A stretch of 64,000 bases of DNA. Origin: Natronococcus sp. A-GB7. GTDB lineage: Archaea > Halobacteriota > Halobacteria > Halobacteriales > Natrialbaceae. The stretch lies in assembly GCF_029688865.1 (NCBI RefSeq), contig NZ_JARUKV010000009.1, positions 1 through 64,000 of the forward strand, read 5' to 3'. Positions 52,066-55,008 of this stretch are shown one piece after another; position 1 is the first letter of the stretch, and each line of letters begins with the position of its first letter. Under the pieces are notes generated by a model. It was not told where the DNA came from. It did not search any database and worked only from the letters and a program-made list of their open reading frames with translations. The translations under genes were made by a program, and so were the position numbers.

Positions 52066-52197
52066 CACGTCCGTCCCGCGCGCCGAAGCTCTTTCTCGAG
52101 GTCTTTCGGGCGCCGAGCGACGCCTCCGCCGGGACCCGCGTTCTCTCGTCGGCCGAACAACCAAACCGATTTGACGGTCCGTTCCCGAGTCTCGAAC

Positions 52198-52554
52198 GTG
52201 TCGGAAGCGAACCCCGTCGAGCGCTGGCAGGCCCGGCTCGAGGAGACCGGCGAGCTCACGCCGGAGATCGTCGACCGGATCTCGACGCTCCACGGCGACC
52301 GCGGGGTTCGCGCCATCGAGGCGGTCGGCGAACATCGCGTCAAGTCCTACCGCGATTTCACGATCGTCGTCGGCTACGAGGACGAGTACATCGTCGAGGA
52401 CGGTGGCTGTACCTGCAAGGACAGCGAGTACAACTTGAACGACGACGATCCGACCGAGCTCTGTTGGCACTCCCTCGCAGTGGCGATCGCCCGCCGGGTG
52501 GGTCACGTCGACTACCACGATATGTGGTACTCCGACGTTCGCGAACTGCTCTGA
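52198..52554 (+). CDS. SWIM zinc-finger protein
   Basis: A 118-residue protein starting at GTG 52198 (VSEANPVERWQAR). The SWIM motif C-x-C-x(n)-C-x-H appears as GGCTCKDSEYN...LCWHSLAVAIA. SWIM domains bind DNA or protein and occur near recombination and transposition proteins, including homologues that work with Rad51 paralogues. It is convergent with the orc1/cdc6 gene (24-nt gap) next to the origin, which may be meaningful. Another in-frame GTG upstream is not favoured. Confidence 0.82.
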   Translation: MSEANPVERWQARLEETGELTPEIVDRISTLHGDRGVRAIEAVGEHRVKSYRDFTIVVGYEDEYIVEDGGCTCKDSEYNLNDDDPTELCWHSLAVAIARRVGHVDYHDMWYSDVRELL

Positions 52555-52578: not shown

Positions 52579-53778
52579 CTAGTCGGACTCGTTGCAGGCC
52601 GCGATGATGACCTCCGGATCGTCGATCAGCCGGTTTTCCATGTAGTTGCCCTTTCCCTTCCCCGCCCACTTGCGCTCCTGTTCGATGATCGAGAGGAACT
52701 CGAGCTCCGAGAGGATGTCTCGTACCCGCCGGAGCTTCAGGTGGTCCGAGCGATCCCGATCGCAGAGGCGCTTGTAGAGGTCGTAGGCCTCGTTGGTCGT
52801 CACCGGGGCGTCCTCGCCTTCCTTCTGCTGGGTCAGCAGCGCCATCGCCTCGAGGACGAGTTTCGCGTGACTCGGGCTCTTCGAGATGAGCTCGGCCAGT
52901 CGGCTGGTCTCCTCGCGCTCGTGGGCATGGTCGACGCAGGCCTCCGTGACCCTCTCGAGGTCGTCCTCCTCGGCGATCTCGCCGGCAAAACGGAGGATGT
53001 CGATCGCCTTCCGGGCGTCACCGTGTTCGCGTGCGGCCAGAGCGGCGACGCGAGGAACAACGCCGTCTTCGAGGACGCCGTCGTGGAAGGCGTCGGATCG
53101 CGAGCGCAGGATCTCACGGATCTGTGAGGCGTCGTACGGGGAGAAGACGTACTCGCGTTCACAGAGGCTCGATTTGATCCGCTCGTCCAGGGAGTCCTTG
53201 TACCGGACTTTGTTCGAGATGCCGATGACGCCGACGGTGCTGTCCGTGAGTTTGCCGGATTCGACCGCCCGCGAGAGCTGCATCAGGATGTCGTCGTCCT
53301 CGATCTTGTCGACTTCGTCCAGGATTATCAGCGCAACGTCGTACCCGGTGTCGACGATCCGCCAGAGCCGTCGGTAGTACTCGGCGGTGCTCAGCCCCGA
53401 GTGGGGGATCGAGATCCCCGTCTCGGGCTGGTCGTTGAGCTGGTGGGCCGTCGACTGGACGGCCTGGGTTTCGGTCGACTCCTGGAGGCAGTCGACGTAG
53501 GCGACCCCGATCGAGACGTCGTTGCCCTCGGCGCGGTCGATCGCCTGGTTCGTGATGAACTTCGAACACAGCGACTTGCCCGTCCCGGTTTTCCCGTAGA
53601 CGAGGACGTTGTTCGGCGTGTTCCCCCGCGTGGCCGGTTTGATCGCGTTCGCGAGGTTCGTCAGCTCGTCCTCGCGACCGATGATGCGGTCGCCGTCGGG
53701 GAGGTGTGACACCTGCAGCAGCTCCTTGTTTCGGAAGATCTCGGTTTCGCTGCCGAAGTAGTCCATCGAATCCGACAT
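52579..53778 (-). CDS. orc1/cdc6: Orc1/Cdc6-family replication initiator
   Basis: A 399-residue AAA+ initiator. Walker A is GKTGTGKS (62-69), Walker B LIILDEVDKIEDD (about 150), and sensor I VIGISNKV is followed by the Arg-finger region and an AAA lid (to about 280). A winged-helix domain (about 300-395; SPSHAKLVLEAMALLTQQKEGEDAPVTTNEAYDLYKRL) recognises origin recognition boxes. Eight such boxes lie in the spacer immediately upstream of the gene, the classic archaeal layout of initiator next to its own origin. ORB1 begins 106 bp before the ATG, so autoregulation is likely. Confidence 0.95.
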   Translation of the reverse strand: MSDSMDYFGSETEIFRNKELLQVSHLPDGDRIIGREDELTNLANAIKPATRGNTPNNVLVYGKTGTGKSLCSKFITNQAIDRAEGNDVSIGVAYVDCLQESTETQAVQSTAHQLNDQPETGISIPHSGLSTAEYYRRLWRIVDTGYDVALIILDEVDKIEDDDILMQLSRAVESGKLTDSTVGVIGISNKVRYKDSLDERIKSSLCEREYVFSPYDASQIREILRSRSDAFHDGVLEDGVVPRVAALAAREHGDARKAIDILRFAGEIAEEDDLERVTEACVDHAHEREETSRLAELISKSPSHAKLVLEAMALLTQQKEGEDAPVTTNEAYDLYKRLCDRDRSDHLKLRRVRDILSELEFLSIIEQERKWAGKGKGNYMENRLIDDPEVIIAACNESD

Positions 53779-53883
53779 TCAGCTACTCCGACTATCGGGA
53801 GGGGTGGCTTGTAAACGTTCGGAACCGGATTGCCGCTGTAATTCCCTCGGTTTCGTTGCGTCGCGTTCTGAGAAACGGGAACG

Positions 53884-53907
53884 ACACCCCTCGATGCCGC
53901 TGTATAG
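53884..53907 (+). repeat. Origin recognition box 1
   Basis: ACACCCCTCGATGCCGCTGT followed by ATAG. Nearest box to the orc1/cdc6 start (106 bp). Confidence 0.85.
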
Positions 53908-53918
53908 GCCGTTCGGGG

Positions 53919-53941
53919 ACTCCGGAGTGCCGCTGTATGAG
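53919..53941 (+). repeat. Origin recognition box 2 (variant)
   Basis: ACTCCGGAGTGCCGCTGTAT followed by GAG: conserved core, degenerate C-string (CCGGAG in place of CCCCTCG). Confidence 0.8.
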
Positions 53942-53984
53942 TGTGTCTCTCGCGGTCGGTCGGCCGCGAACTGCGCTTCAGGAC

Positions 53985-54008
53985 ACACCCCTCGGTGCCG
54001 CTGTATAA
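53985..54008 (+). repeat. Origin recognition box 3
   Basis: ACACCCCTCGGTGCCGCTGT followed by ATAA; full match to the consensus. Confidence 0.85.
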
Positions 54009-54051
54009 ACGGGTCTCTCACAGCGAGGCGCTGTGCGAGGTGGAGTCGAGA

Positions 54052-54075
54052 ACACCCCTCGATGCCGCTGTATCG
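54052..54075 (+). repeat. Origin recognition box 4
   Basis: ACACCCCTCGATGCCGCTGT followed by ATCG. Confidence 0.85.
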
Positions 54076-54127
54076 GCGAGTGGATGGGTGAACCTGAACT
54101 GTCGCCGACAACGCTCGAGGAGTCGGC

Positions 54128-54151
54128 ACACACCGGAGTTCCGCTGTATGT
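54128..54151 (+). repeat. Origin recognition box 5 (variant)
   Basis: ACACACCGGAGTTCCGCTGT followed by ATGT; core TTCCGCTGTAT has one change (T for G) and the same CCGGAG string as box 2. Confidence 0.78.
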
Positions 54152-54190
54152 GGACAAATTGTTCGGTAGAAAGCCGTATTCGTTCGTCTC

Positions 54191-54214
54191 CCACCCCTCG
54201 GTGCCGCTGTATAG
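54191..54214 (+). repeat. Origin recognition box 6
   Basis: CCACCCCTCGGTGCCGCTGT followed by ATAG. Confidence 0.85.
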
Positions 54215-54222
54215 ATACACAC

Positions 54223-54245
54223 ACACCCCACAGTGCCGCTGTAAC
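54223..54245 (+). repeat. Origin recognition box 7 (variant)
   Basis: ACACCCCACAGTGCCGCTGT followed by AAC; last of the direct series. Confidence 0.8.
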
Positions 54246-54437
54246 GGGGCGGAGGTGGGGGAGTCGAAACGGAGGGTGATCGGGAACTGGCGTCCGCGAC
54301 GACGCGATAGCCGACGCCGACTTCGACTCTTGCACGATATTATCGAGGGATGCTGGCGAGAGATGCTGTACAGCCTCCGAAACGGATCACAGATGCCTCG
54401 AAACGGCCGTCGATAGCCACACAACAAAAAACCCGTC

Positions 54438-54503
54438 CGACCGCGAGGAACTACCCAGTCGGTTGTGAGGAACCACCCACTCGACCGCGAGGAACCTTAC
54501 AGC
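54438..54503 (+). repeat. Three 22-bp tandem repeats inside the origin
   Basis: Three back-to-back 22-nt units share CG-N5-(C/T)G(A)GAGGAAC(C/T): CGACCGCGAGGAACTACC at 54438, CGGTTGTGAGGAACCACC at 54460 and CGACCGCGAGGAACCTTA at 54482. They lie between the seven direct boxes and the inverted one. They may bind another origin protein or help strand opening. Confidence 0.65.
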
Positions 54504-54633
54504 GACTTCTGCCCCGGACTCGAGCGACGAACCGAAGGACGTGGCCGAGACGGAAACCGGATCGACTCCGAACCCCGGATTCGACTCGAGTCGTCTCCCC
54601 GTTCGATACGATCGAACGCAGTCTCGTTCGATA

Positions 54634-54682
54634 CTGCTAATGGACTTTGACTCAGTAATAGTATTTATGTATGGTGATATCC
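54634..54682. other. A+T-rich tract, candidate duplex unwinding element
   Basis: The most A+T-rich stretch of the origin (ACTGCTAATGGACTTTGACTC, then AGTAATAGTATTTATGTATG and GTGATATC). It sits between the two oppositely oriented groups of origin recognition boxes, where haloarchaeal unwinding elements are expected. Confidence 0.5.
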
Positions 54683-54832
54683 GTAGAGAAGAGTTCGGTC
54701 GAACGAATCGACATCTTCAGTCGGGAACTCACAACCCAACTCATCGGCTGTAGGTCTCACAACCGCTCGAGAGGAGTTTTTCGGCTCCACGCAGCGACCG
54801 TCCGGTCTTCCACCCCGCCCCCTCTCCGTGAG

Positions 54833-54858
54833 CTATACAGCGGCACCGCGGGGTGTGT
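54833..54858 (-). repeat. Origin recognition box 8 (inverted)
   Basis: On the plus strand CTATACAGCGGCACCGCGGG followed by GTGTGT; the reverse complement matches boxes 1-7. It is the only box facing the opposite way, on the far side of the A+T-rich tract. Confidence 0.85.
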
Positions 54859-54873
54859 CTCTGCCACTTCCGC

Positions 54874-54942
54874 GTCCGCAGTCGGCTCGCCCACCCACGT
54901 CCGCAGTCGGCTCGCCCACCCACGTCCGTAGTCGATTCGTCG
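54874..54942 (+). repeat. 25-bp tandem repeat (2.7 copies)
   Basis: Two perfect units beginning GTCCGCAGTCGGCTCGCC and ending CACCCAC (54874-54898 and 54899-54923) and a third, partly diverged unit (54924-54942). They lie just beyond the inverted origin box. Such short tandem arrays arise by replication slippage; a function at the origin is possible but unproven. Confidence 0.7.
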
Positions 54943-55008
54943 ATCTCCGGACGTCCCCGAGCGACGACCTCACTCACGGTTCCCGGCGATTCCGCTCACA
55001 GCCCCGGC

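Follow-up and report, generated by a model that had tools for sequence, protein, structure and literature searches.

What kind of origin, if it is one, carries a long row of initiator boxes on one side of its A+T-rich stretch and a single box on the other? The usual picture of archaeal origins has Orc1 boxes around an A+T-rich stretch. In a 64,000-nucleotide stretch of Natronococcus sp. A-GB7 DNA (the window, meaning this whole stretch), 8 same-facing ORB-like boxes (53820-54246) and 1 inverted box past an A+T-rich tract lie upstream of an orc1/cdc6 gene, with the following features:

52579-53778, minus strand: orc1/cdc6 initiator gene, 399 aa
53808-53822, minus strand: BRE/TATA-like core promoter of orc1 (CCGAACG-TTTACAAG), which abuts P1 and overlaps it
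53820-53843, minus strand: direct box P1, promoter-proximal, GG-only (TTACAGCGGCAATCCGG); kept at -64 in 62/63 orthologs, with GGGG in none
53884-53907, minus strand: direct box P2 (GGGG), from weight matrix and ortholog scan
53917-53940, minus strand: direct box P3, box 2 of the preliminary description, a Natronococcus variant without GGGG
53985-54008, minus strand: direct middle box, from weight matrix and ortholog scan
54052-54075, minus strand: direct middle box, from weight matrix and ortholog scan
54128-54151, minus strand: direct box D3, box 5 of the preliminary description, a GG-only slot; box present in 56/63 orthologs
54191-54214, minus strand: direct box D2 (GGGG), 32 bp from D1 (62/63 orthologs)
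54223-54246, minus strand: direct box D1, gene-side flank of the A+T-rich spacer; GGGG in 97% of orthologs
54631-54680, unstranded: A+T-rich minimum and putative unwinding element, the lowest 50-mer at 30% GC
54833-54856, plus strand: single inverted box I (CTATACAGCGGCACCGCGGGGTGT); GGGGTGT in 63/63 orthologs

The gene product matches TIGR02928 at 417 bits (cut-off 181.3) and has Cdc6_lid and Cdc6_C domains; among solved structures it is closest to Aeropyrum ORC1 (2v1u) and S. solfataricus Orc1-1 (2qby_A). A weight matrix built from the window's boxes, which are 21-24 nt long, scores them at 27-38 bits, against 7.2 bits for the best match in the 50 kb of the window outside the locus. Taken in the orientation of orc1, the direct boxes have the sequence TATACAGCGGCA-CCGAGGGGTGT and their G-string faces the gene; the G-string of every box is directed away from the A+T-rich tract. 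The preliminary description had placed seven direct boxes here and a lone inverted one beyond an A+T-rich tract. Seven good direct copies do span 360 bp at 53884-54246 in the orientation given, the inverted box lies about 590 bp off at 54833-54856, and the 50-mer at 54631-54680 bears out the tract; the count of seven was too low, and the eighth box, at 53820-53843, is weaker because its 3' end merges into the orc1 promoter. Inverted G-string ORBs around an A+T-rich region, directly adjacent to an orc1/cdc6 gene, are the known haloarchaeal origin type (PMC3528665, PMC3936714), so the earlier reading of the locus as a predicted replication origin holds. The strongest boxes, I and D1, directly border the A+T-rich spacer, and from the sequence we predict with high confidence an oriC-type origin made up of canonical flanking boxes plus an accessory array. 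By analogy with other archaeal origins, Orc1 bound to I and D1 would load MCM inward and the spacer would open there.

The asymmetry that was pointed out at first is marked, and it is kept across 63 genomes. We scanned the upstream regions of 63 distinct orthologous loci (at least 78% identity, nearly all Natrialbaceae) drawn from GTDB contigs and further genomes, and direct boxes stand on the gene side in all of them, numbering 5-20 with a mode of 8. Past the spacer there is one inverted box in 60 loci and two in 3, and the spacer itself measures 286-850 bp from box start to box start, with its A+T minimum closer to the inverted box in 54/63. Boxes at the gene end occupy positions -64, -128 and -160 in almost all loci, and the triplet at the spacer end keeps its 32-bp step in 62/63 and its 63-bp step in 56/63, so that one module, a pair 32 bp apart with a third box after another 63 bp, occurs twice per locus. 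Strict helical phasing was also considered for the array from end to end, and we rejected it: the triplets are fixed at 32 and 63 bp, yet the middle boxes vary freely in number and spacing across the 63 loci and show no strict helical phase. One locus, L039 of Natrarchaeobius chitinivorans, is an extreme array expansion, with 20 direct boxes in near-regular 33-36-bp steps.

Box type also follows position. GGGG is found across the 63 loci in 100% of I, 97% of D1, 90% of D2, 90% of P2, 85% of middle boxes and 74% of P3, and is nearly absent from the third slots (5% in D3, where it is missing in 95% of the 56 orthologs with a box, and 0% in P1). The weak type therefore marks the third position of each module. 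Boxes 2 and 5 of the window do share CCGGAG, which had suggested that two box subtypes alternate, but weak boxes occupy fixed slots in the orthologs, so the supposed alternation is really positional and the pairing of 2 with 5 coincidental: the P3 variant of the window (GGAGTCC) occurs in 5 loci, all Natronococcus, in a slot that has GGGG in 74%.

In other haloarchaeal families, relatives with 60-69% identity share the box core, have a promoter-proximal box as well (at about -55) and retain the polarity, mostly with 2-4 direct boxes and sometimes with a longer row on the opposite side. Three loci outside Natrialbaceae (L136, L121 and L130) have extra boxes on the far side of the spacer, in 61-bp steps in L136. 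The view that seven boxes in one orientation are unusual is half right. A canonical oriC1 has two inverted ORBs, and 2-4 direct boxes are the norm in the 60-69% relatives, but Haloarcula hispanica oriC2D has 11 ORBs (PMC3936714) and a second orc locus of the same genome (L010, G000:C3) has boxes TTCATTTCGAC, 7 in one direction and 2 in the reverse. A polar array is thus not restricted to the window's initiator; by a crude count, boxes are fewer at the remaining orc loci of this genome.

What, then, might the array do? It is possible, if doubtful, that a directional array carries a cooperative Orc1 filament, acting directly in opening and MCM loading and needing all boxes serially, much as the DnaA boxes of bacterial oriC might be pictured. 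The single orientation shared by all boxes would fit such a filament, as would the 32-bp and 63-bp steps of the distal triplet (62/63 and 56/63 loci) and the near-regular 34-bp steps of the 20 boxes in L039. But box number ranges from 5 to 20, the middle spacings are loose and lack a helical phase, and the 60-69% relatives mostly manage with 2-4 direct boxes, some with extras on the opposite side. For the strict spacing of the distal triplet, a structural part in initiation and a part in titration are equally good explanations.

We favor a role for the array in titration and autoregulation. P1 continues straight into CGAACGTTTAAG, the BRE/TATA of orc1 (CGAACGTTTACAAG in the window), at the same place in the orthologs, and from this fusion autoregulation of orc1 is the natural inference. 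Orc1 binding at this end of the array would lie on the orc1 promoter and could turn orc1 off. The extra gene-side boxes could serve as a local initiator reservoir that buffers free Orc1, with opening itself needing none of them. The two recurrent triplets, whose 32 and 63 bp correspond to about 3 and 6 helical turns and whose third box is weak, may hold cooperative Orc1 assemblies, one beside the spacer and the other on the promoter. Judged from sequence, initiator titration together with orc1 autoregulation is the most likely role of the array.

A second question is what lies in the spacer. Alignment of the spacers, followed by a matrix search against shuffled spacers, brought out a conserved element:

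54611-54632, minus strand: inverted repeat ATCGAACG-AGACTG-CGTTCGAT after the core
54614-54673, minus strand: conserved spacer element, 60 bp, TAAATAC...CTGAGTCAAAGTCCATTAGCAGTATCGAACG...
54635-54645, minus strand: element core (GTCCATTAGCA), a diverged form of GTCCATTRAGT

The element has the consensus TAAATA...CTGTGTNAAAGTCCATTRAGTGTATTGAACG and usually sits about 100 bp inside the inverted box; over its roughly 60 bp the core AAAGTCCAYTRAGT is followed by a hairpin with varying arms. The window copy (54614-54673, minus strand) is somewhat diverged. Matches above shuffled spacers are present in 63/63 orthologs, which is not an independent count since the matrix was refined on these same 63 loci. 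A second origin family (Orc about 57% identical), whose ORB is TTTCACCGGAAA, shares this core, as AAAGTCCATTRAGT, within the A+T-rich spacer at nearly all of 21 loci; because the Orc proteins of the two families are related, common descent may explain part of this sharing. Exact-pattern genome searches with a 12-mer and a 15-mer provide an independent test. Across 125 Natrialbaceae genomes the 12-mer AAAGTCCAYTRA turns up 55 times; judged by coordinates, at least 35 of the copies fall in the roughly 1.1 kb upstream of an orc gene, and tblastn confirms an orc at 19 of the 30 loci fetched. The 15-mer WAAAGTCCAYTRAGT has 27 exact matches in 391 haloarchaeal genomes, of which 26 lie less than 1.5 kb from an orc gene and the other lies 12 bp from a contig end. 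The orc genes beside the core belong to at least three types besides the window's (nearest own-genome paralogues L002, L004 and L005), although most matches are of the L002 type and so are not all independent. The core was not found at oriC1 or at the other scanned orc loci of the window's genome.

The spacers also contain tandem repeats. In the window there are CCGCGAGGAAC units within the spacer (54431-54505) and three 25-bp units past the inverted box (54870-54944), and L024 has different repeats at the corresponding place. Slippage may be the cause of variable spacer length.

The hairpin after the core changes in sequence from species to species while its arms stay complementary, as in AACCCGTGAT-TTT-ATCACGGGTT, AAGATGGATC-ATAT-GATCCATCTT and GAAGCGAC-GTTA-GTCGCTTC. 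Stems of at least 6 bp occur at the expected place in 18/25 loci of the second family and others (17 different arms, vs 1.7% in shuffles) and in 34/63 loci of the window family (vs 1.3% in shuffles), where the pairing excess is modest, 0.68 vs 0.60 for column shuffles (maximum 0.64). The repeat after the core is often threefold and alternating (a, a', a), as in L229, L237, L271, L272, L287 and the window (54602-54632), a pattern that would permit two mutually exclusive hairpins.

We infer that AAAGTCCAYTRAGT and its hairpin most probably serve as the site of some origin factor distinct from Orc1, with a role like that of the ucm motif of Sulfolobus. A different explanation, conceivable but in our judgment improbable, is that the element is a promoter with a short structured RNA and no protein site. 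One might expect from such a promoter the TATA-like TTTATA/TAAATA that does lie at a fixed distance, about 20 bp upstream of GTCC, and from such an RNA the compensated hairpin arms in many different sequences described above. Yet a BRE-like sequence is not evident, the 14-bp core is conserved better than is usual for a start-site region, and the orientation relative to orc is inconstant (L271, L272 and L278). An Rfam search returned no match to the element, and RNA folding of the window copy alone was no better than shuffles (z -0.19). The evidence inclines us, with some reserve, to the broader view that haloarchaeal origins of several Orc1/Cdc6 types share an unwinding-region cis-element, made up of a TTTATA-like tract, AAAGTCCAYTRAGT and a hairpin with changing but complementary arms, which would be read by a non-Orc1 factor or act as a structured strand.

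Does such a locus fire? In haloarchaea, orc genes and predicted origins outnumber the active origins, and the source genome (a draft of 4.88 Mb in 77 contigs) has more than 12 orc1/cdc6 genes above the family cut-off. The window's initiator is a separate paralogue whose nearest relatives by identity are in Natronococcus genomes and whose nearest other in its own genome is L002, about 56% identical. In the sister chromosome, a complete Natronococcus chromosome of 4.01 Mb, another Orc of about 575 aa (G089:C1:1484-2878) is encoded about 2 kb in from the start; an extra stretch of about 100 aa splits its TIGR02928 match in two, as also happens in the window's genome (L009/L015, G000:C23), and it is probably the oriC1-type Orc1. 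The predicted origin unit of the window lies, in most orthologs of about 90% identity or more, between hisH and a SWIM-domain gene/trm1, a context that points to chromosomal vertical inheritance. The SWIM label of the 127-aa ORF at 52171-52554 was read from its Cys/His pattern, and Pfam gave no match to this ORF. Copies with 83-86% identity sit on megaplasmids, for example Natrinema versiforme pNVE414 and Natronosalvus rutilus unnamed1. A single-orc megaplasmid was considered as proof of origin function and rejected, as the N. halobius, N. rutilus, Natrononativus and pNVE414 plasmids each bear at least two orc genes.

The GC-skew plot proposed in the preliminary description as a check gives a divided answer. 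Cumulative GC skew has a local maximum at 53-54 kb of the window, in agreement with a published note that places Haloquadratum origins close to skew high points (PMC3119063), but over 80 samples of the sister chromosome no clear inflection emerges at the orthologous site from GC skew, from third-position skew corrected for strand or from gene-strand bias. It is worth asking whether the locus is regulatory or dormant, its boxes mainly controlling orc1 and titrating Orc1 with little or no initiation. We regard this as unlikely, although the surplus of orc genes and predicted origins and the flat skew would both fit, as would two precedents: oriC2D of H. hispanica, a cluster of 11 ORBs, does not initiate and holds back oriC2 (PMC3936714), and in Natrinema J7 a predicted 8-ORB cdc6-adjacent origin, which may not be a homologue of the one here, lacked ARS activity, its plasmid giving 0 transformants (PMC5350488). 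Unlike oriC2D, however, the window's array lies upstream of its gene, an inverted box, A+T-rich spacer and spacer element accompany it in 63/63 loci, and megaplasmids carry the same orc1-array-spacer unit. Chance or functionless repeat expansion we set aside almost entirely, since the layout, the orientation rule and the slot-specific box types are kept in 63 genomes, a conservation that already refutes it even though species-specific short tandem repeats show that local expansion occurs in the spacers. The reading that we consider likely as a whole joins a chromosomal Orc1/Cdc6-dependent origin, a reservoir and autoregulatory array, and a spacer site for a non-Orc1 factor.

The conserved layout yields testable rules, namely that box G-strings face away from the spacer, that modules keep 32/63-bp steps and that a weak box merges with the initiator's promoter, and it exposes the candidate Orc-independent element within the spacer. 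In the literature searched we found no description of a polar array that combines fixed modules with a box fused to the promoter. The spacer element is the more novel result and the part most worth following; its 15-mer is a nearly specific tag for locating origins, with 26 of 27 exact matches beside orc genes.

Among known systems, Haloarcula hispanica oriC1 likewise lies upstream of orc1/cdc6 and has an A+T-rich region flanked by inverted ORBs with G-strings, and in that species the inverted ORBs and their G-strings are essential while an ORB cluster acts negatively (PMC3936714). G/C-rich stretches just inside both flanking boxes in Natronococcus recall the oriC1 enhancer repeat (PMC3936714), though this inner G-rich repeat is not conserved outside Natronococcus in the 63-locus comparison. 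Two ORBs suffice at oriC1, which belongs to the universal Orc1 (PMC3936714), whereas the window's locus has eight boxes to one side of the spacer and differs in both ORB sequence and Orc paralogue, and its neighbors are hisH and SWIM/trm1 instead of the conserved oriC1-type Orc1 and its gene context. The oriC2D cluster of H. hispanica is likewise dense (11 ORBs in 722 bp by cdc6), and initiator titration has been proposed for it (PMC3936714), but it is non-initiating and lies downstream of its gene, whereas the window's array stands upstream of orc1, is polar and belongs to a complete origin layout. The boxes of 'origin II' of Hla_3512 / Hwa_HQ2959A (ORB TAACAGCGGAAACAGTGGGGTGGGG; PMC3528665) have a nearly identical core, AACAGCGGAA...GGGGTG vs TACAGCGGCA...GGGGTG; the layout reported for them is two origins beside one gene.

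For the spacer element the nearest parallel lies further away. At Sulfolobus oriC1, ucm is essential and bound by UBP, a protein reported only from Sulfolobales/Desulfurococcales (PMC12141716). A text search for the element's sequence found no haloarchaeal paper, subscription papers being outside its scope, and the element would be a haloarchaeal counterpart of ucm that we did not find described in the literature searched. By eye, its core AAAGTCCAYTRAGT is unlike the ucm oligo, which contains AATTATACAAACTC (PMC12141716), and the hairpin after the core is a further difference. Both are conserved non-ORB motifs in the unwinding region that are common to origins with different initiators, and the spacer element thus resembles ucm in position and logic, not in sequence. 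The 2025 ucm/UBP paper asks whether other archaeal lineages possess an analogous origin factor (PMC12141716), and in haloarchaea the spacer element offers a concrete bait for one.
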